A DNA stretch of 64,000 nt from Shewanella cutis. Its GTDB lineage: Bacteria; Pseudomonadota; Gammaproteobacteria; Enterobacterales; Shewanellaceae. The notes under the pieces were generated by a model, which worked only from the letters and a program-made list of their open reading frames with translations, did no database searches and had not been told where the DNA came from. The stretch's first letter is position 1, and each line of letters starts with the position of its first letter. This document shows, in pieces, positions 1 through 8,855 of the stretch. The stretch covers positions 1-64,000 of the forward strand of contig NZ_JACSDI010000018.1 of the NCBI RefSeq assembly GCF_022410515.1, in the 5' to 3' direction. The translations under genes and the position numbers were made by a program.

Positions 1-52
1 TTTTAAAGCCTAGGTGAAGGTGCTGAAAAACACAAAAAGATATGGCTGTCCC
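1..52. repeat. RAYT-element flank, copy 1
   Basis: These 52 bases match 55,325-55,376 at about 50 of 52 positions, with the only differences near bases 14-15. The second copy lies just upstream of a complete REP-associated Y1 transposase gene read leftward, so this copy probably marks the 5' end of a related element whose gene lies left of the window. Both copies lose similarity right after the same three C's, so the element boundary is probably at base 52. Confidence 0.7.
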
Positions 53-64
53 AACTATCTTTCC

Positions 65-196
65 AGCTAACGCCCTGTTAAGGTGTGAGCAACGCAATAC
101 CGAAGCTCCCGCATGCCACCTTAAACACAAAACGCAACGCATAGTATAAATGCCACGCGTTGCGAATCACTCTTAAACAGATTGTTATGGGGCTAT
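65..196 (-). other. Integron attC recombination site
   Basis: Read on the minus strand, an R''-like core (CCCATAAC) is followed by an imperfect arm, a variable middle, a second imperfect arm and an R'-like core (G|TTAGC, crossover between bases 71 and 70). The arms pair through a shared block of about 20 bases (TTAAG, GTG and GCAACGC parts) with a few unpaired bases, which is the hallmark of attC folding. The site follows the HNH gene stop codon in the same orientation, as expected for a cassette. Size and sequence style resemble the long attC sites of Vibrio/Shewanella chromosomal integrons. Confidence 0.8.
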
Positions 197-799
197 GGCA
201 TCAAAAGCTTCTTGCAATTCGGGGTTATCTATTTCTACCCTAGGCTGGTTGCCCTGTGCCATATCAAAACTGTTTTTTTCCAGACGGTCCAATTTAAAAT
301 AATCGTAAGTAAACGCACCTTTAGAGCTGCCATTTACAACCGAATACTTCAACATAACTTTACGACCAACTTGTCCTGCTATCAGCAGTAAATGAGAGTC
401 ATAAAAGTCCAAGTTGGGGTGAATTATTTTATAGTACTTTGAGCGCAGCAATGTTCCAGTATGAGCTGTATTTATTCCTTCTAAAAAGTCAACTTTTGAC
501 TTTTTGATATTCATATTACAGCGCTTGCATGAGACGGAAAGATTTTTACCTTTAAACATCTGTTTTGGAAAAATTGACTTTGGTAGGATATGTTCGATGT
601 CTATAACCATTCGAAACTCTCCATATATATTCCTACCACAATAACAGCATCTATCCTCTGTTTTTATTAATCCAAAATTTTTAATTTTATCTTTTAAAGA
701 AGTTAATGATGGGTTTTTATCCCACCCAGTGTGACCAATGCGAGATGCTTCCTGCATAGATCTTTTCTCTAGGTCAGTAAATGATGGTCTATTAGGCAT
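185..799 (-). CDS. ptuB: HNH endonuclease, PtuB-like (Septu-type defence)
   Basis: A 204-residue protein with a zinc-supported HNH nuclease core: CCYC at residues 51-54, the catalytic-type DIEH at 67-70 with LPKS after it, then CKRCN at 91-95 followed by a lysine-rich stretch. This layout is typical of PtuB and of the HNH proteins paired with ATPases in Septu and some retron defence systems. The gene overlaps the upstream ATPase gene by 8 bases, so translation is probably coupled. Its last codons run into the attC site. Calling it Septu rests on the gene pair and motifs. A related ATPase-HNH system without the name Septu is possible. Confidence 0.7.
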   Translation of the reverse strand: MPNRPSFTDLEKRSMQEASRIGHTGWDKNPSLTSLKDKIKNFGLIKTEDRCCYCGRNIYGEFRMVIDIEHILPKSIFPKQMFKGKNLSVSCKRCNMNIKKSKVDFLEGINTAHTGTLLRSKYYKIIHPNLDFYDSHLLLIAGQVGRKVMLKYSVVNGSSKGAFTYDYFKLDRLEKNSFDMAQGNQPRVEIDNPELQEAFDAIAP

Positions 800-1925
800 C
801 GGAAGTCCTTGAATTATTTATCTTTTCAATTATCTCATTAACGCCTTCTAAGAAAGTAATCTGCCGAGGGTCGTAAACTTTGTTTTTGTACCCTTCGATG
901 ATTTGTAACGCATCGTTATATTCAATATTCTTAGCGTCAAAATTATTTATTGTTTCTACCATTTTGTTAGATAAAAACCTATTTTCAGGAGTAATCACTC
1001 CGAAGACCTCTGAAAGCAACTCTTCATTGTTGCTTGTTTTTTCATCTACCTCTACAACAACTCCATTTTTTGGGGTAAATATTTTATACAAATCGTTATC
1101 TATTGGAATGATTTGAGGTGAATGTGAGGCCACATAGATCTTTGGTTGAAATAAGTAAAAAACATCCAGGATCATATCTATATATTTACGCTGCCATCTC
1201 GGGTGTAAACTATTTTCAGGCTCGTCAATTAAGATTACAGTGTCTTTATCAATATATGAAGAAATATGAACCAACATTGAGATGATCATTAACTCACCTG
1301 AGCTAGCATTTGCTAATGCTATTTCGGAATCTTCCCTATACAGGTAAGTTCTAAATCTTTTAATAATTTTATATTTTTTTAAAATTTTCTCGTATCGTAT
1401 GAATGCGGACAGAGCAGATCCCGATACATTATTATTTTCTTTAGTTACTGCCCATAGACTTATAGCAACAACTGATTCTCTAGAAAATGGTTCGTGATAT
1501 TTTTTTATTAAACTGAAAACATCATAAATCCGTTCATCTTCTTTCGCTGCAAGATATAACGATTCTATATTATCTGGCTCAAACCCTTCGACCTTGATTC
1601 CTATTCTTGGCGAATATTTTGCGTATTCCAAAGCGCTTATTAAATATTTAACCCTATCAACATCACTATTGGAATCGCCTAACAATGATTTTTTGATTGC
1701 TCGTTCAACCATGCTTCGGCCTTGACGACCTCCATAAAAGTGGAACTTCCTTCGCCTCGAAGTGAATTTATCATGTATAGAGGTTGCTATCGCTATTACA
1801 GTTTTATTGTCATTTAGGTAGTCTAAAGAAAGCTCATTCAAAAGAGCACTTTTACCAGTTCCGTTTTCGCCAATAATTATTTTGATATTAGAATTTGTAT
1901 TTTTAAGATTAAAGTTATTACTCAT
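792..1925 (-). CDS. ptuA: AAA family ATPase, PtuA-like (Septu-type defence)
   Basis: A 377-residue ABC/SMC-like ATPase. Walker A is GENGTGKS at residues 19-26, a signature-like ASSGE lies near 208, and Walker B is LIDEPENS with D234/E235, followed by HPRWQ as in AAA_21/OLD-type ATPases. The D-loop and switch region (ASHSPQII) follow about 35 residues later. In Septu the ATPase partners an HNH nuclease and acts in anti-phage defence. The protein is shorter than many PtuA members. It is first in the operon, 37 bases from the cassette boundary, so it may depend on a promoter outside the cassette. A and T are enriched compared with the chromosomal genes nearby. Confidence 0.7.
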   Translation of the reverse strand: MSNNFNLKNTNSNIKIIIGENGTGKSALLNELSLDYLNDNKTVIAIATSIHDKFTSRRRKFHFYGGRQGRSMVERAIKKSLLGDSNSDVDRVKYLISALEYAKYSPRIGIKVEGFEPDNIESLYLAAKEDERIYDVFSLIKKYHEPFSRESVVAISLWAVTKENNNVSGSALSAFIRYEKILKKYKIIKRFRTYLYREDSEIALANASSGELMIISMLVHISSYIDKDTVILIDEPENSLHPRWQRKYIDMILDVFYLFQPKIYVASHSPQIIPIDNDLYKIFTPKNGVVVEVDEKTSNNEELLSEVFGVITPENRFLSNKMVETINNFDAKNIEYNDALQIIEGYKNKVYDPRQITFLEGVNEIIEKINNSRTSDA

Positions 1926-1962
1926 CTACCTGAATTACCTCCAACTTTGATAGCCCCATAAC

Positions 1963-2520
1963 ATTTTATTCGTGCGCATGCGCGTTTACCTCGTTGGACC
2001 AGTGAAAACGCGCACAGTTAACTATTTGTATGTAATGAACTTATCAGCATTTTGCTAAATTCACCATCTGGAAAAACGCGCATGCGCGTTTCCCAAATCT
2101 ATTATCTAACTCATAGGTTTTATAATTGCATGATTTTAAGAATATTTATTCATATTGGAATGTGAAAACGCGCACGAAGTTGGAATAAAAATCGTCATGA
2201 TTCCGATATGACTGTATGCCTGTCCAGTTTTTAGGCATCCCAAAACATTGCAACATTTGAGATATATGGATGAAAATTTATAGGCGAGAAAGTCTGTGTT
2301 TGACTGCGCCACAGACAACCAGTTAACTCGTTTTGGGGCAAAAGTAAGTTAACTCAATCTGTCGGTTCTGATTGCATCCGGATGTAAATCAGCACAAGTT
2401 AAGTCCAGACTAAATCCACTTTTTTATTCACCAAAACGCGACTTAGGCAGTGACGACTATGCTGCAAATTGTTTATGTTAGGGCAAATTATTGACTCGAC
2501 AGATATCGGAGCCAGAAACC
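1963..2520. other. Intergenic region with palindromic repeats
   Basis: No convincing gene lies here. The segment next to the cassette boundary (1,971-2,175) holds four GC-rich palindromic motifs, listed separately. Further right there are several GTTAACT words (near 2,019, 2,324 and 2,349) of unknown meaning. If the cassette entered at a true attI site this is where attI would be, but no intI gene follows. Confidence 0.5.
1971..2175. repeat. Four spaced AACGCGCA-type palindromic repeats
   Basis: Four related motifs lie in 205 bases of AT-rich DNA. Copy 1 at 1971-1987 centres on GCGCATGCGC. Copy 2 at 2002-2015 is GTGAAAACGCGCAC. Copy 3 at 2074-2091 is an 18-base perfect palindrome built on ACGCGCATGCGCGT. 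Copy 4 at 2162-2175 is identical to copy 2. They could be operators, recombinase-binding sites or a decayed array of extragenic palindromes. They stand right at the upstream boundary of the defence cassette. Confidence 0.65.
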
Positions 2521-3132
2521 ATGCCCAATTCATTTCGCCGTAGTGCACTCAGTTCACTCTTGTTGCTCTCATTCTCTGTGATGGCTGCGGATGTGGCGAC
2601 AATCACCCTTGAGAATGGGGCTCAGGTCAGACTGAAAGATGACTTTACTTGGGAATATATCATCACAGAGACTAAAGCCGCTGAGATGCCCGTGGCTGTC
2701 GCTGCAGCACCTAGCGCCAACATTGTAAGCACGAGCACTGCCGCCGTTGCTGCCGCACCAGTAACCACCCTTACCGCCAATGCCATTGCGCGCCCTGAAC
2801 TCTTGGGTTCTACCGCCAAAGACGGCATTAAAGTCACTTTTACCGACAGCCAGTGGAAGGGCAACAAACTCGGCCTGACCTTCGAACTTGCCAGTACCAG
2901 CAGTGAGCATGTGACCTTGGTTGAGGTAGAAGCTAGCTTCTTTACTGATGATGGCTCACTGCTCAAAACCGAGAAACTGGAAGTTTGGGAAGCCATTTTC
3001 CGCATGCCAGAAACCTATTTACGTAAAGGTGAGCAACGTAAAAGCCGCGTGATTTGGGTCGAAGATGTGGATAAAAACCGTTGGCAAAAACAGCTAGTCA
3101 ATCTCAAAATCACCGAAATCAACTCCCGTTGA
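2521..3132 (+). CDS. DUF3157-like exported protein
   Basis: A 203-residue protein with a typical signal peptide (basic MPNSFRR start, leucine-rich core, cleavage near VMAAD). An alanine/valine/threonine-rich linker spans about residues 55-85, followed by a compact C-terminal domain. The start at 2521 is preferred over an upstream TTG at 2491 because it is preceded by GGAG and opens directly into the signal peptide. The C-terminal part resembles the gammaproteobacterial DUF3157 family, whose function is unknown. It is a single gene, read toward the DUF481 gene after a gap of 138 bases. Location is probably periplasmic. Confidence 0.65.
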   Translation: MPNSFRRSALSSLLLLSFSVMAADVATITLENGAQVRLKDDFTWEYIITETKAAEMPVAVAAAPSANIVSTSTAAVAAAPVTTLTANAIARPELLGSTAKDGIKVTFTDSQWKGNKLGLTFELASTSSEHVTLVEVEASFFTDDGSLLKTEKLEVWEAIFRMPETYLRKGEQRKSRVIWVEDVDKNRWQKQLVNLKITEINSR

Positions 3133-3270
3133 TCACATGTCCAAAGTAAGGAGTTGATAGGCTCCCTGTCAATTCCTTACAATCTCCCCTTAACGCTATT
3201 GCCTTACTAGCCGTGATATAAGCTAGAATGCCAGAATCTTTGAGACCGTTAATTTTTGAGCCAACCGCAA

Positions 3271-4260
3271 ATGCCAAATCGCTATCCTATTTTATGTATG
3301 GCCATGCTCTTAACGGGCGTAAGTTGGCAAAGTCTTGCTGATACCGTGTTACTAAAAAATGGCGATCAAATCACTGGTGAAATTAAAAGCTTTGACGAAG
3401 AACACTTAGTCATCAAGCCCAGTTATTCCCCAAAAATATCCATAGAACGCAGTGCGATCAAAAGTTTTGAAACTATCAGTAATCAACATTGGAGCATCAA
3501 TCGCACGCTGCAAAATGTGAGCATTCAATCCTCAGAACTCGATGGGTTTGTGCTGGTTAACAATCAACAAACACCTATTAGTGATTTAGTGTTTTCTGAC
3601 CGAAAAAGCGATTCTGAGTGGCGCTACAATGGCAGTGTGGAGGCCGCAATTGATGTCACTAGCAACACTAAAAATACCCAAAAACTCCATGCTAAAAGCG
3701 ATATTACCGCCGAAACCTTACAATGGCGCCATAACCTTAAAAGTGAGGTTCGCTATGAAACCGAAGAGAAAACCACCAAACGTAATACGATTGAAGGTCA
3801 CTACAGCCTTGACTATCTCATCAGTGAACATTGGTTAGTGCGTCAAGAGGATTATTTTCAAGAAGATAGACTCGAGGTCCCCATACGCAATTATTACGCC
3901 GCGCTCGGTCCAGGTTTTCGATTTTGGGGGGTCGGGCGAGATAAGCTGGACTTTGTTGTCACTTACAACCACTTTTGGTTAGAGAGTCAATACTTTACCT
4001 ATCAACTCAATGCCTGGGCTACCACTATTAACTATAAACAATATTGGTTTGACGGCGTATTGGAGACCTATGCCGATCTCCAAATCGCCTTTCCTGACAC
4101 GCCAACCATTGACTATATTTCTGACGTAACCATTGGACTTAAATACTTGCTAACACAGCAGATTTACCTCTCATTTAAATATGATATTAATGAGACTGTG
4201 TCCTCTGCGCTCAATACACAAAACATCAACTACAACCTAGGACTGGGTGTGAACTTTTAA
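3271..4260 (+). CDS. DUF481 family outer-membrane protein
   Basis: A 329-residue protein with a signal peptide ending near SLADT, then a small N-terminal segment (TVLLKNGDQITGEI) common at the start of these proteins. The remainder is rich in alternating aromatic and polar residues and ends in a terminal phenylalanine, as in outer-membrane beta-barrels. DUF481 proteins (YdiY type) are predicted barrels, some induced by salt or acid. The ATG at 3271 places the signal peptide at the N-terminus and is favoured over a TTG at 3256. The gene ends flush against the convergent lysozyme-inhibitor gene with no spacer. Confidence 0.75.
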   Translation: MPNRYPILCMAMLLTGVSWQSLADTVLLKNGDQITGEIKSFDEEHLVIKPSYSPKISIERSAIKSFETISNQHWSINRTLQNVSIQSSELDGFVLVNNQQTPISDLVFSDRKSDSEWRYNGSVEAAIDVTSNTKNTQKLHAKSDITAETLQWRHNLKSEVRYETEEKTTKRNTIEGHYSLDYLISEHWLVRQEDYFQEDRLEVPIRNYYAALGPGFRFWGVGRDKLDFVVTYNHFWLESQYFTYQLNAWATTINYKQYWFDGVLETYADLQIAFPDTPTIDYISDVTIGLKYLLTQQIYLSFKYDINETVSSALNTQNINYNLGLGVNF

Positions 4261-4884
4261 TCATTTGGGTGTTTTTACCGTACAGGTCATTTCTGGCGCT
4301 TCATATCCCCAAACGATTCTCGCTTCACCATGGTGTTCCCACAGACTCTCATTTTGGCCCTGATATTTGGCACCACTGGCGCTAGGCTGAACAAACATCA
4401 GCGACGTTTTATCGCCACGCTCGGCAATCAGGGTCGCTGGCTCAGTTTTAAAATAATTGACCACGACTTCATTGGCGGGATTGCCATCGCAGGCGTAAAA
4501 CACGGGGCCAGTCATCTCAACGAGGCGATATTGCGCCTGTAGCTCGGCAATCCGAGTTTGATAACTCGACTCGATACAGGCACGTTTATCTTCACTCTTC
4601 CAACATTCATTACGACCTTTGACCCAGCCCCGCTGCATGGCTTTTAATACTGGAGGTTGTTCATTTTTAGCTTTTTCAGTGGCCTTGGCATAAACATCCG
4701 CCAGTTGCCTATCTAACTTAATTAAGCCCGCATCCTGACACACCATCTCTTCGATGCTCCCCGCCTGCACTTTACCACAGTCGAAGGAAGGCGACTCTGC
4801 TGCAATAGCAGACATACTCAAGGCCATGGCTAACAGCCCTACTATTCCTGCGTTTTGCGTATTGATTATCTTAGCTAACGTCAT
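4261..4884 (-). CDS. LprI/MliC double-domain lysozyme inhibitor
   Basis: A 207-residue exported protein. After a signal peptide (cleavage near AIAAE) there is an LprI/DUF1311 domain at about residues 33-115 with conserved cysteines (FDCGK, MVCQD, NECW, RACIE) and the typical KAMQRGWVKGRNECW block. The C-terminal domain (about 120-207) matches the MliC/PliC lysozyme inhibitor fold: YACDG near its start, then SASGAKY and a terminal cysteine. Both domain families inhibit or are linked to inhibition of host lysozyme. Having both in one protein suggests protection of peptidoglycan in the periplasm. A shortened gene on the same strand lies 32 bases upstream. Confidence 0.8.
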   Translation of the reverse strand: MTLAKIINTQNAGIVGLLAMALSMSAIAAESPSFDCGKVQAGSIEEMVCQDAGLIKLDRQLADVYAKATEKAKNEQPPVLKAMQRGWVKGRNECWKSEDKRACIESSYQTRIAELQAQYRLVEMTGPVFYACDGNPANEVVVNYFKTEPATLIAERGDKTSLMFVQPSASGAKYQGQNESLWEHHGEARIVWGYEAPEMTCTVKTPK

Positions 4885-4916
4885 ACTTTTAACTCCCTTA
4901 TATCAACGACCAATCA

Positions 4917-5090
4917 CTATTCATTGCTATAGCTAACGCCATCCCAGCTTAACCTAAGCTGACTTAAGCAAAATACGCTCACCGAACAGGCAAAAATCAG
5001 CACTAATCCACAAATACCACTCAATGCCAGCTCAGCAATCAAGCTGTGCTTAACAAACTCGAGTAAGTGTAGTGCAGCCTGATGGGTTCC
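4917..5090 (-). pseudogene. C-terminal remnant of a small membrane protein
   Basis: About 55 residues of open frame encode an amphipathic segment, one clear hydrophobic helix (LALSGICGLVLIFACSV) and a short polar tail. Upstream, coding quality ends at sequence that looks like a transposon end, so the N-terminal part of the gene seems to be lost. It lies just upstream of the lysozyme-inhibitor gene on the same strand. The original function cannot be told. Confidence 0.3.
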
Positions 5091-5165
5091 CCCAAAAGTG
5101 TCCACTGAACCGGACACATTTAAACTGAACACGCGGACACATTCAGGCCCATCAGGCGGACACTA
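5083..5165. mobile_element. Possible insertion-sequence end remnant
   Basis: Within about 80 bases a GTGTCCACT and three GGACAC words (near 5115, 5138 and 5158) occur at roughly regular spacing, and GATGGG and CCCATC flank the block as an inverted pair. Multiple spaced copies of such a word are typical of the ends of IS21-type elements, where the transposase binds repeatedly. No transposase gene is present, so this would be a leftover end. Confidence 0.3.
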
Positions 5166-5262
5166 TTTTTATCGCAATGATAAATAAGGAATATTTTATT
5201 GGCACAGACTCTGCTTATACCAGAGTGTTAATCACAAACTTTCATTCATACAAGGAAGCATT

Positions 5263-5877
5263 ATGGACACTCGTACAAAATTATTCGGTAGTTTATTGAT
5301 TATCGCACTCATCTCCTGCGGCATATGGGCAACCCAGCAAACGAGCACTCAAAGTTCAGCCGAAACCAACATTTCGGTGAACAGTCAAAATTACCCTGAT
5401 TTTTCTTGGACTTATGTGCATCAAGATGGCGAGATGACCATTGGTTCAGGCCAGAGTCAAGATTGGAATAAACTCAAAAGCCAAGGAAATCCCTATAAAA
5501 CAGACTACCTTTGGGTCAAAACCGCGGGTAAAGCCTATGTCATCACCAAGCCAGACTTAGTAAACCAAGTCAAAGAGGCAGTGCGCACAATGCAACTGCA
5601 AGGCGAAAAAATGCAGCGACTGGGTGAACAAATGCAGGTTAAGGGCGATGCCATCAGCGCCGAAACCAGCAAACTCTTAATCAATCTCGCCTCAAGTGAA
5701 AAAGATACTGAGGTTAACGCGCAAATTGAAAGTCTGGGCGAATCGATGGAAGTGATGGGCAAAGAGATGGAACAACTCGGCCAAGTTCAGCAAGAGTTAG
5801 CCAATGTGGCTGAAAAGCAGGTGTTCGAACTAGCACAAAACGCGATTAAACGTGGCGATGCGACACTCGCGCCCTAA
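5263..5877 (+). CDS. Anchored coiled-coil protein of unknown function
   Basis: A 204-residue protein not assigned to a known family here. Residues 1-25 form a hydrophobic anchor or signal peptide with a cysteine (LISCGIW) that does not fit a standard lipobox. A globular part follows (about 40-105). The rest has strong heptad character with repeated MQLQGEKM/MQVKGDAI and MEVMGKEM/MEQLGQVQ units, suggesting a coiled coil. A good ribosome binding site (AAGGAAG) precedes the ATG at 5263. It lies upstream of the M48 protease gene in the same direction, separated by 115 bases. A periplasmic, membrane-tethered location is likely. Confidence 0.6.
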   Translation: MDTRTKLFGSLLIIALISCGIWATQQTSTQSSAETNISVNSQNYPDFSWTYVHQDGEMTIGSGQSQDWNKLKSQGNPYKTDYLWVKTAGKAYVITKPDLVNQVKEAVRTMQLQGEKMQRLGEQMQVKGDAISAETSKLLINLASSEKDTEVNAQIESLGESMEVMGKEMEQLGQVQQELANVAEKQVFELAQNAIKRGDATLAP

Positions 5878-5992
5878 TTATCTTAAATTAAAAACACTAA
5901 ATTATAGGTAATCCCTATTATAGAGATTGTATTTCCTAGTGAAATTGACTATTTTCACGCCGTTTTGTTATTTCACTAGGGAAAGGATCTAT

Positions 5993-7342
5993 ATGGAACA
6001 AGCGATTACCGCAGGGAACAACCACCCCATTCAAATGGCCGATACCGTCTATTCGAAAGAAAAGTCACTGTTTGCAATTTTAGCAATTATTTCAGGACTG
6101 ATTTGGGCCGTGCTGATCTTAGCCACCAAAGGTATCGCCCTGATTTATGTGCTGATGTTTTTTATTATCTACTTATTCACCCACTCGGCGTTTATCAGCT
6201 ACATAAAGGGTACTGCGGTTGAAATCAGCCCTGAGCAGTTCCCCGATTTACACAAACAATACCTCGCCTGCTGCGAGCGTTTAGAGATTAAAGAAGCGCC
6301 CCGCGCTTATCTGTTAGCGGCCGATGGCATGTTAAACGCCCTCGCGACCCGCTTCTTGCGCCACAACTATATAGTGCTGTTTTCATCAATTGTGGATGCA
6401 CTCGAGTCGGATAAAGATGCGATAAACTTCTATATTGGCCATGAGCTGGGCCATATTCGCCGTAACCATATTGGTAAAGAGCCGCTGTTAGTGTTCGCTA
6501 CTTGGCTGCCATTAATCGGTGCCGCCTATGCCCGCGCCTGCGAGTATACCTGCGATTTACATGGCCTGCGCTGCTGCAATAGCTTACGTTCTGCCACCAA
6601 TGCAGTTGCCGTATTAGCCGCTGGGGTTGAGCAGTGGAAACGCATGAATGTCGACCAATATATTCGCCAAACCCAAGAGTCGAGCGGATTTTGGATGTCC
6701 TTCCATGAGCTCAATAGCAGTTATCCTTGGCTGACTAAACGTATGGCAAGAGTACAAGCAACTGCACAGGGCAAAATGTATGCAGCGCCTTCTCGCAGCG
6801 TATTCGCCTACCTCTTTAGCCTATTTATGCCACGTATGGGTACGGCTGGCGGTGGAATTATCATCCTCGCGGCCATTATCGGTGTGGCCGCAGCGGTCGC
6901 GATTCCCGCCTATAAGGAATACCACGAGAAAATAGGCGAGGAGTTCGGTTATAGTCAGGATATGGGAAATTCGATGACGCAACAATCGGATACACAGCCC
7001 CCTGAGCCAGCACCAGTGCCTAATACCGCACTCGCTATTGAGCATATCGACCAATTGCGTCAGTCACTAATACCAGTAACAGATGCTCTAACTCAATATT
7101 ATCAAAGCACTAATGCATGGCCGACTGAGCCAGAAGTCCTTGGATTAACCGATGAGCAACTGTCCACTTTCACTCTCTATACTAATCCAGTTATTAGCTT
7201 TGATGCAGGTGAGGCCCTTGGCAATTATCAAGGCTCATCAGTGTATCTGAGACTTGAGGTGGACGAGCAAAATAATATCACTTGGATATGTTATAGTAAC
7301 ATTATTCCCGACGAATATTTACCTGCCGATTGTCAAGGCTAA
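5993..7342 (+). CDS. M48 metalloprotease with pilin-like C-terminus
   Basis: A 449-residue membrane protease. Two hydrophobic helices near residues 25-65 precede an M48 (HtpX/Ste24-like) domain with the zinc motif HELGH at 150-154. After the protease domain a glycine-rich turn leads into a hydrophobic segment (GIIILAAIIGVAAAVAIPAY, about 286-305) closely resembling the N-terminal helix of type IV pilins, followed by YKEYHEK. The last 75 residues resemble a minor-pilin head, with two cysteines at about 433 and 447 and a YLPADC ending as in PilA-type disulfide loops. The ATG at 5993 follows GGAAAGG. A bidirectional-looking terminator follows the stop. Confidence 0.8.
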   Translation: MEQAITAGNNHPIQMADTVYSKEKSLFAILAIISGLIWAVLILATKGIALIYVLMFFIIYLFTHSAFISYIKGTAVEISPEQFPDLHKQYLACCERLEIKEAPRAYLLAADGMLNALATRFLRHNYIVLFSSIVDALESDKDAINFYIGHELGHIRRNHIGKEPLLVFATWLPLIGAAYARACEYTCDLHGLRCCNSLRSATNAVAVLAAGVEQWKRMNVDQYIRQTQESSGFWMSFHELNSSYPWLTKRMARVQATAQGKMYAAPSRSVFAYLFSLFMPRMGTAGGGIIILAAIIGVAAAVAIPAYKEYHEKIGEEFGYSQDMGNSMTQQSDTQPPEPAPVPNTALAIEHIDQLRQSLIPVTDALTQYYQSTNAWPTEPEVLGLTDEQLSTFTLYTNPVISFDAGEALGNYQGSSVYLRLEVDEQNNITWICYSNIIPDEYLPADCQG

Positions 7343-7346
7343 GATC

Positions 7347-7374
7347 AAAAAGCGCTGCCAATGCAGCGCTTTTT
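7347..7374. terminator. Terminator after the M48 gene
   Basis: AAAAAGCGCTGC pairs with GCAGCGCTTTT across a short loop. With A's on one side and T's on the other it could end transcription from both the M48 gene and the converging yedEF operon. Confidence 0.8.
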
Positions 7375-7407
7375 ATTTGCCGTGATGGCCTTATTCGAAT
7401 GGTTAAA

Positions 7408-7641
7408 TTAACGCTGGATCAGATAGCGAATCGTTGGCCCGTTTTGCTCAATTTCTAGCACTTTATAGCCATGATTCTTAGCATCGAGGGGAATATTGTT
7501 GATTGACTGCGGGCAGTCACTGATCACTTCTAATATCTGCCCCGGTTTCAGTGTTGGCATGGCCTCAAGGGTTGCCACGGCAGGATAAGGGCAAGGCTCG
7601 CCCACCATATCGAGTTGATAATCTGGAATATATTGACTCAT
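7408..7641 (-). CDS. yedF: YedF, TusA-like sulfurtransferase
   Basis: A 77-residue protein of the TusA/SirA fold with the active-site motif GEPCPYP (Cys17). YedF members are small carriers of sulfur or selenium and are found beside YedE in selenium-using bacteria. The start codon overlaps the yedE stop codon by one base, so the two are translated together. Presence next to fdhD, selAB and a selenocysteine formate dehydrogenase supports a role in selenium handling; this role is inferred from context. Confidence 0.88.
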   Translation of the reverse strand: MSQYIPDYQLDMVGEPCPYPAVATLEAMPTLKPGQILEVISDCPQSINNIPLDAKNHGYKVLEIEQNGPTIRYLIQR

Positions 7642-8855
7642 TACGCCGCCTCCGCGATCAATTGTTCATCCCGCTTTGCCTTACGGGCAAAGAAACGTTT
7701 TTCCCACAGCAACATGGCCGCAAATGACAATGCCAGCAGCAAATAGGTCATTAATAAGCCACCTTTATCGCCAAAGCTGGTGAGCAGGTTAACCTTGTCC
7801 CAGTTGGTCGCTAAGGGTTGAGCCAAGTCATCCCAGTAATAGGCCAGCAGGGTTGAACCGAGCACGTTACCTAAGCCGACCCACCAGAAATGTACTTGGC
7901 CTTCGACGGCGCGATACATCCAACCTGTCTCACAACCACCCGCCAGCACAATGCCAAAACCAAACAGCAGGCCACCAATCACCGCATTCGGGCCAGCCCA
8001 CATAATTTTGGGCGGCACGCCTAATTGCACATAGCTATAAATCCCGATGACACTCACCGCCATACCGAGAATAATCGCCTTGGCCATATGGGTGCGTCCG
8101 GTGATCCACATATCGCGAAATGCCGAGGTAAAGCAGATTTGCGCCCGCTCAATCAACAGACCAAAACCCACACCGCAGAGCATGGCGATACCCAGTTTAG
8201 GCGCATTGAACATCGTCAGTAATCCCCAACCAATAATGGCTGCGAACACTAACATGCCGATGCGAAAACGCCGTCTGGCTTGGTTTTCATCCTGTTTGAC
8301 CGAAGACGCCTTATCGACTTTCTTCAACTTCACCGGAATACGAAACATGGGCAGTAGCGTAAAGCGCGCACCAAAGTACGAACCCGCCGCCGTCGCGAGG
8401 GCAAAAAACCATGCGTGTAAGGAAAACTGCGGAATACCAGTAAAGAAGGCCGCTAAGTTACAGCCCATCGCCAAGCGCGCCCCAAAGCCAGCAATAATGC
8501 CGCCGATTAACGCCTGAGCGATACGGATACGGCTCTGTGGCATACGCAGTTTAACGTTATTCGCCCACAACGCCGCCGCAATACAACCACCAAACATACC
8601 GATGATCATCATGCCGTCGATACGGTCTAAGGGAGAGCCCTGCAAACCTATCACCTTGAAATAACCCCAGGTTTCAGGATTTGCGCCCATCAATTGCAGC
8701 AAATGCCCACCCCAGCGAGTAAATTCCCCCGTGACGGCCCAGAAGGTGCCAGTTAAGCCAAAATAGTAAGTAGAAAGGATACCGGCGGCGATAACCGCAG
8801 GCATTGGAGCCCAAAAACGAACCAAATATTGTTGTTTAAATTGTTGCCATGTCAT
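7641..8855 (-). CDS. yedE: YedE, selenium-metabolism membrane transporter
   Basis: A 404-residue polytopic membrane protein of the YeeE/YedE (TsuA-like) family with about ten helices and repeated glycine/cysteine motifs in two halves (LAMGCNLAAFFTG and LAGGCETGWMYRA). Members move thiosulfate or related sulfur/selenium compounds, and this branch is linked to selenium metabolism in selD/selA-bearing genomes. It is followed by yedF with overlapping codons. A sulfur- or selenium-import role is known for the family; selenium is inferred from neighbours. The start at 8855 gives a normal-length N-terminus (MTWQQFKQQYLVRFW). Confidence 0.85.
   Translation of the reverse strand: MTWQQFKQQYLVRFWAPMPAVIAAGILSTYYFGLTGTFWAVTGEFTRWGGHLLQLMGANPETWGYFKVIGLQGSPLDRIDGMMIIGMFGGCIAAALWANNVKLRMPQSRIRIAQALIGGIIAGFGARLAMGCNLAAFFTGIPQFSLHAWFFALATAAGSYFGARFTLLPMFRIPVKLKKVDKASSVKQDENQARRRFRIGMLVFAAIIGWGLLTMFNAPKLGIAMLCGVGFGLLIERAQICFTSAFRDMWITGRTHMAKAIILGMAVSVIGIYSYVQLGVPPKIMWAGPNAVIGGLLFGFGIVLAGGCETGWMYRAVEGQVHFWWVGLGNVLGSTLLAYYWDDLAQPLATNWDKVNLLTSFGDKGGLLMTYLLLALSFAAMLLWEKRFFARKAKRDEQLIAEAA

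Follow-up and report, generated by a model that had tools for sequence, protein, structure and literature searches.

Several kinds of described systems resemble the locus reported here. Cassettes and short arrays that lie away from an integron integrase gene are known as CALINs, or as SALINs where a single orphan cassette is present, and in Shewanella they occur in genomes both with and without intI; the available text of PMC9229058 counts 115 SALINs over 41 Shewanella genomes and also describes cassettes with two or three ORFs. One intI-less array with an attI of its own is reported, in the accessible part of PMC9892861, from the Shewanella prophage M16-3. Cassettes that carry phage defence genes in chromosomal and mobile integrons (Darracq, Kieffer, Getz 2025) are reviewed, for Vibrio and for mobile integrons, in PMC12409362, whose available text states that none of these systems has more than two genes, and in which the word Septu does not occur. 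Septu type I is an adjacent pair of genes for a PtuA ATPase and a PtuB HNH nuclease, exemplified by E. coli Septu and the PtuAB of retron-Eco7; anti-phage activity is known for relatives of PtuAB, and in E. coli Septu the ATPase and HNH motifs are both required and infection triggers cleavage of tRNA-Tyr (PMC13096335, in the portion available). Miniature elements that move integron parts are represented by the integron mobilization unit and the TIMEs, which carry Tn3/Tn21-type inverted repeats and bracket resistance genes (PMC13367494, likewise in the portion available).

The DNA analysed here, referred to as the window, is a stretch of 64,000 nucleotides from Shewanella cutis (contig NZ_JACSDI010000018.1, positions 1 to 64,000 of the forward strand), and its features of interest lie near its left end (Table 1). 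We put at about three in four the probability that a Septu cassette was inserted here by integron recombination into the intI-less attI of a dispersed, non-autonomous integron unit. Like the Shewanella CALINs and SALINs the window has an attC site with no neighbouring intI, but many of the cassettes considered below sit at a recognisable attI on a repeated unit, and section 3.4 of PMC9229058, in its available text, mentions no attI at the cassettes it describes. The M16-3 CALIN shares with them a Shewanella attI at the head of an intI-less array, but it is described in the accessible text as a single prophage case, whereas we find a family dispersed over the genus and on plasmids. With the reviewed defence cassettes the window has in common the carriage of phage defence genes as a cassette, and it differs in having an orphan attI as the host site. 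The integron mobilization unit and TIMEs are similar in being miniature elements that move integron parts; in contrast to these, with their inverted repeats and bracketed resistance genes, the unit of the window type has the attI inside it and has the ends TGCCCC and TGTCC in direct orientation. With the exception of the M16-3 case, we found in the texts available no description of a repeated unit that disperses attI copies lacking intI.

Table 1. Features at the left end of the window (positions in the window; strand; identifying evidence).
Feature	Position	Strand	Evidence
IS-like element start just beyond attC; contig end	1..52	.	
Integron gene cassette, ptuA-ptuB with own attC	71..1961, 1891 bp	-	start/R'' 13-bp match, attC model, homologues
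attC site (R'' 184-196; crossover G at 71)	71..196	-	covariance model over 62-197
ptuB-like HNH nuclease, 204 aa	185..799	-	PADLOC PDLC00354 (PtuB1), E 4.3e-93
ptuA-like ATPase, 377 aa	792..1925	-	PADLOC PDLC00273 (PtuA1), E 8.5e-148
Cassette start joined to attI crossover G (G^TTATGGGGCTAT)	1950..1962	-	
Shewanella-type attI region, intI-less copy	1963..2109	-	block shared with pNi1-3 and phage M16-3, where it separates intI from the cassettes
Left arm of repeated attI unit	2110..2340	-	outer end GGGGCA at 2335-2340 (TGCCCC on minus strand)

A first-pass annotation of this DNA had read the two genes of 71-1961 as a Septu-like ATPase-HNH pair, and we agree with this assignment: the top PADLOC matches are to the PtuA1 and PtuB1 models, and the catalytic motifs are intact, with GENGTGKS (Walker A), SSGE, DEPE and SHSP in PtuA and the HNH/Cys4 region CCYC...HILP...CKRCN in PtuB. 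The genes are adjacent, as in Septu type I, and overlap by 8 bp; a GGAGG precedes the ptuA start, and ptuB ends with a stop codon that falls within R''. The pair departs from the Septu type I examples in being carried as one integron cassette and in missing the cut-offs of the NCBIfam retron Ec78 equivalogs by a wide margin (39.7 of 500 bits for PtuA and 22.5 of 150 bits for PtuB). Sequence searches of the PDB returned no more than weak AriA/PtuA-like relatives with PtuA, and no relatives with PtuB. Judging from family membership it is likely that the PtuAB of the window works like Septu, in a phage defence in which the nuclease action of PtuB would be gated by PtuA.

The cassette boundaries are marked by the 13-base sequence GTTATGGGGCTAT, which occurs perfectly at two places in the window, 184-196 (+) and 1950-1962 (-), as had been noted at first pass; the cassette start read from 1962 to 1950 is the exact complement of the R'' of its own attC, at 13 of 13 bases, and shuffled sequence gives 0.11 matches at one mismatch or fewer. 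With G71 as the crossover base and 1961 as the first base of the cassette, the length of the unit follows directly. The cassette begins GTTATGG, which departs from the strict GTTRRRY consensus. That an attC-type site lies 3' of the HNH gene and in the same orientation is borne out by a covariance model whose training set was ten attC sites, six of a V. coralliilyticus array and four of the S. cutis genome, with the Septu attC excluded: on the minus strand 62-197 scores 133 bits (E 6.6e-24) with this model, which has only 7 base pairs, hence reads mostly sequence, and fits one attC type. The attC-like sites that follow the other S. cutis attI copies all escape the model, so that the identification of those is by R'' match and a stem heuristic. 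A search of 1-8000 against Rfam gave no match.

Folding of the site, proposed at first pass as a check, gives a divided answer. The integrated attC folds weakly better than shuffled sequences (z -1.66 and -0.99), and the form expected in the excised circle folds well, with 13 R''/R' pairs and z of -5.4 on the top strand and -5.2 on the bottom, none of 200 shuffles being as good; the predicted minimum of this form is without the full textbook L''/L' hairpin. The Septu attC type is common in Vibrio. Of 84 plasmid records that match 1-8000, 52 are from Vibrio, and among the matches listed (the best 20 of the 84) many of the Vibrio plasmid matches come through the Septu attC.

Three homologues of the cassette were found elsewhere. 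A V. coralliilyticus plasmid has 98.2% identity over window 66-1966, and a Neptuniibacter sequence (90.6%) and a Cellvibrionaceae MAG (90.1%) both match over exactly 1962-182; in the latter two, which are unrelated arrays, another attC stands before the cassette and a different attC-like sequence after it. The start is exact in two of the three, the likeness running 4 bases past it in the other. One homologue retains the attC end; in the other two it is different, and the likeness stops at R'' rather than at 71, as would be expected under an attC swap. The alignments therefore fix the cassette start.

The 13-bp match between start and R'', the attC model score and the homologues together support the proposed integron cassette with ends at 71 and 1961, and we regard these boundaries as confirmed to the base. 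The same three lines of evidence, in particular the homologues that begin exactly at 1962 in other arrays, make it extremely improbable that the genes are an ordinary chromosomal Septu operon beside an attC-like site that is a chance or unrelated repeat, and no point in favour of such an operon was found. What does need to be softened is the view that a two-gene anti-phage cassette is unusual, since Shewanella cassettes of two to three ORFs and defence cassettes had already been reported (PMC9229058, PMC12409362, in their available texts); the Septu cassette is a fresh example of these reported defence cassettes.

The Septu cassette occupies the first position at a Shewanella attI. The 147-bp block next to it separates intI from the first cassette in both S. 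decolorationis pNi1-3 and Shewanella phage M16-3, ends in G^TT as is characteristic of attI sites of the SonIntIA type, and differs by one base from the M16-3 attI string printed in the accessible part of PMC9892861. A Tn554-like origin of this flank, suggested by a likeness of neighbours on one IncC plasmid, was considered and dropped, the block being the attI beside intI. No integrase-like ORF is present in 1-8000 of the window, from a reading of the ORF list by eye, and the locus is not a complete integron. Searches of the incomplete S. cutis genome (4.86 Mb in 50 contigs) with an integron integrase model and with the IntI protein of pNi1-3 gave no IntI over cut-off, and the two best matches below the cut-off are presumably XerC and XerD; an intI may lie in one of the gaps of the 50-contig assembly. 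A promoter scan of 1900-2500 found 2 candidates against 2.1 expected, no more than chance, and expression of the cassette from the attI side is therefore unsupported by the scan. At the opposite end of the cassette, the sequence of window 1-52 also precedes a transposase-like ORF behind an attC at a second locus (L058, about 765-1883, on the cassette side), and an IS-like element is the probable cause of the break in the contig at position 1 of the window.

The attI of the window is one of a dispersed family. There are 11 matches to the 147-bp attI in the S. cutis genome, and one further copy, on contig C6, is internally deleted. Ten of the S. cutis copies reach the crossover. Behind nine of these the heuristic recognises a cassette-like stretch that has both an R'' match and an attC-like stem; some copies head three or four such stretches. 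At L055 the crossover G is lost, and neither R'' nor an attC-like stem is present. The other nine S. cutis loci that extend to the crossover contributed one protein each to a PADLOC scan: the first-cassette protein at seven of them, the first ORF at L055 and the next ORF at L054. The scan finds no defence family, and by that measure the attI sites are thus not defence-specific.

In a sample of the genus, 32 of 60 genomes have an attI match at E <=1e-6, with up to 14 matches each; these counts are lower bounds, at most 14 candidates having been scored per genome, and include some matches that are partial or near 70% identity. Sixteen of the 32 have no IntI over cut-off, among them a genome in one contig (G039) that has 11 attI matches, one of them partial. 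We oriented 79 copies, drawn from the S. cutis genome, 8 named records and 60 stretches chosen among the genus matches (for the most part the stronger ones, from complete genomes), after setting aside two loci that stop short of the crossover; the copies are mutually related, hand-picked and mostly stronger matches. Most or all of intI stands beside five of the 79. Removal of two second copies in the same loci and of one copy with 154 bases leaves 76, which continue after the crossover with GTT in 71 cases, GTTR in 62 and the strict GTTRRRY in 15, and have 69 distinct 16-base starts. A complementary R'' of at least 9 bases is found for 45 of the 76, compared with 6 of 399 control GTTR sites, and one of at least 8 bases for 51, compared with 19 of the 399. 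The match is shorter than 8 bases in the other 25, including eight copies with one 331-bp cassette that has a short R''. According to the available text of PMC3053210, SonIntIA accepts attC sites of widely differing structure, and this fits the mixed attC types behind the attI copies.

The 331-bp cassette (TTCTTGACCTGCGG...) has no obvious gene and a short attC. It stands first at L103, L104, L105, L108, L119, L120, L143 and L150, behind several attI copies of the same genomes, intI-bearing and orphan alike, and its start is also present in L157.

On the intI side, many orphan copies of the attI are followed outward by a common arm with the outer end TGCCCC. The distance of this end from the crossover is 378 bases in the window and 368-423 bases in 47 of the 76 copies. 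The sequence outside TGCCCC differs between many copies, and a good part of these flanks is itself repeated; the same outer end occurs in Vibrio furnissii, close behind a resolvase gene. In an alignment of 44 copies each has one of two left arms, neither with intI, and the outer end is sharp and lies at differing sites. Integrons that do bear intI have the same outer end in four of five instances (L052, L050, L130 and L104), about 1360 bases out, and L158 differs. On the cassette side, 25 of the 79 copies, at 24 distinct places, share a module of 60-70 bp that ends in TGTCC or nearly, with different sequence outside. No inverted repeats were found with the few patterns tried downstream of the arrays, nor was a clean target duplication. 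Both ends have the form TG(C/T)CC and point the same way; at a guess, such ends would be compatible with movement by a single-strand transposase or a site-specific recombinase.

Within the same 44 of the 79 copies, chosen by arm family, the attI is more conserved than the arm that adjoins it: identities are 92.5% for attI and 75.1% for the arm in one group of 16 copies (attI higher in 119 of 120 pairs), and 92.0% and 82.8% in another of 28 copies (331 of 378 pairs). Such conservation would fit use of the attI in trans, and would fit homogenisation as well, given that in G013 the attI and the 331-bp cassette are near-identical between an intI-bearing copy and orphan copies.

The attI units also adjoin other repeated modules, of about 230-270 bp and with GC-rich palindromes (L054, L060, L062, L131, L139, L140 and L223 1-350). 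These modules are bounded by the same TG(C/T)CC and are sometimes in tandem.

Comparison with relatives, nine in number and seven of them (all but G002 and G006) inspected at this place, bears on the history of the window unit itself. In five of the nine (G015, G024, G029, G036 and G039) the gene at window 2491-3132 is followed by what we take to be a DUF1090-like gene, and no unit separates the two; in G042 the neighbour of the 2491-3132 gene is a different one, and G045 has a transposase-like sequence at a contig start. Since the flanking genes are adjacent without the unit in these relatives, the window unit is an insertion. In S. cutis the DUF1090-like gene is at the start of contig C10, the first 100 bases of which resemble the right-end module, and we infer a join of C9 and C10 that carries the right end of the window unit; C17 was tested as a continuation of the window and dropped, and C10 fits. 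Searches with joined flanks recovered no exact empty site, the S. cutis flanks being repeats themselves and the flanks of E. coli EC50 matching EC50 alone, and a plasmid search with window 2330-2520 returned nothing.

We read the orphan copies as non-autonomous mini-integrons that would have been filled in trans. In the sequence of events that we propose, the attC of a circular Septu cassette would have recombined with an intI-less attI copy, in a unit that would comprise a left arm with the fixed outer end TGCCCC, the conserved attI of 147 bp, one or more captured cassettes, and a right-end module closing at TGTCC where this is seen. The orphan units would stand to the intI-bearing units as a miniature element stands to its autonomous parent, a relation suggested by the sharing of attI and, in four of five cases, of the outer end. 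A SonIntIA-type integrase acting in trans, from a plasmid, a phage or a copy that is now lost, may have filled the orphan sites, and the cassette would be expressed from the attI side.

The orphan sites could also be the remains of complete integrons, each of which lost its intI separately after capturing cassettes in cis. Remnants of intI do occur, 53 amino acids of it next to the attI of L032 and a broken start of it at L130, and the 16 attI-matching genomes with no IntI over cut-off are in keeping with it; however, the two shared non-intI left arms, whose sharp end lies at differing sites in 44 copies and recurs in V. furnissii, would not be produced by separate intI losses, and we consider such a history unlikely. 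A different possibility is that attI and first cassette have spread together, by homologous recombination or within other repeats, the integrase being idle after the first capture. In its favour, in G013 the attI and 331-bp cassette of the intI-bearing L104 are 99.8-100% identical to those of the orphans L103 and L105 (96.4% for L108) and the sequence beyond differs, and many of the flanks are repeats themselves. We nonetheless doubt that copying accounts for the family, since the 69 distinct starts behind the crossover in 76 copies, many with their own R'' match, need cassette exchange at the crossover.

If integron recombination into dispersed intI-less units is the correct account of the Septu cassette, it may be an instance of something broader, a distributed integron of Shewanella in which one integrase, often borne by a plasmid or prophage, would serve many mobile intI-less attI sites, with cassettes captured and expressed at many chromosomal places; the odds on this wider proposal seem to us about even. 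The units would then count as non-autonomous integrons, intermediate between integron and transposon, and a single enzyme could, in principle, supply cassettes to numerous sites on the chromosome. The integron content of a genome would not be readable from the arrays beside intI alone, numerous loci could offer first-position expression simultaneously, and parallel loading of defence systems such as Septu would be possible. Dispersed landing sites would also provide a concrete reason for the many scattered single cassettes of Shewanella, and the attI copies on Enterobacterales plasmids beside resistance genes bear on the exit of cassettes from Shewanella.

Several individual attI copies show further variation. 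An orphan attI on a Moellerella plasmid has dfrA1 as its first cassette (L030 8005-8151 and L033 8006-8152 are the two plasmid copies), and one on an Enterobacter hormaechei IncC plasmid is followed first by a fosG-like gene, with no R'' found there. L140 and L128, from two genomes, have the same non-cassette sequence (AATGAAATGGACACC...) after the attI crossover, which is probably an insertion. Contig C49 of S. cutis carries a pair of attC sites (L023 9466-9586 and 10452-10588) away from any 147-bp attI match. Near 8001 in L049 and at 8858-8900 in L022, the attI has been deleted between repeated GCGCATGCGC blocks and still heads cassette-like sequence.
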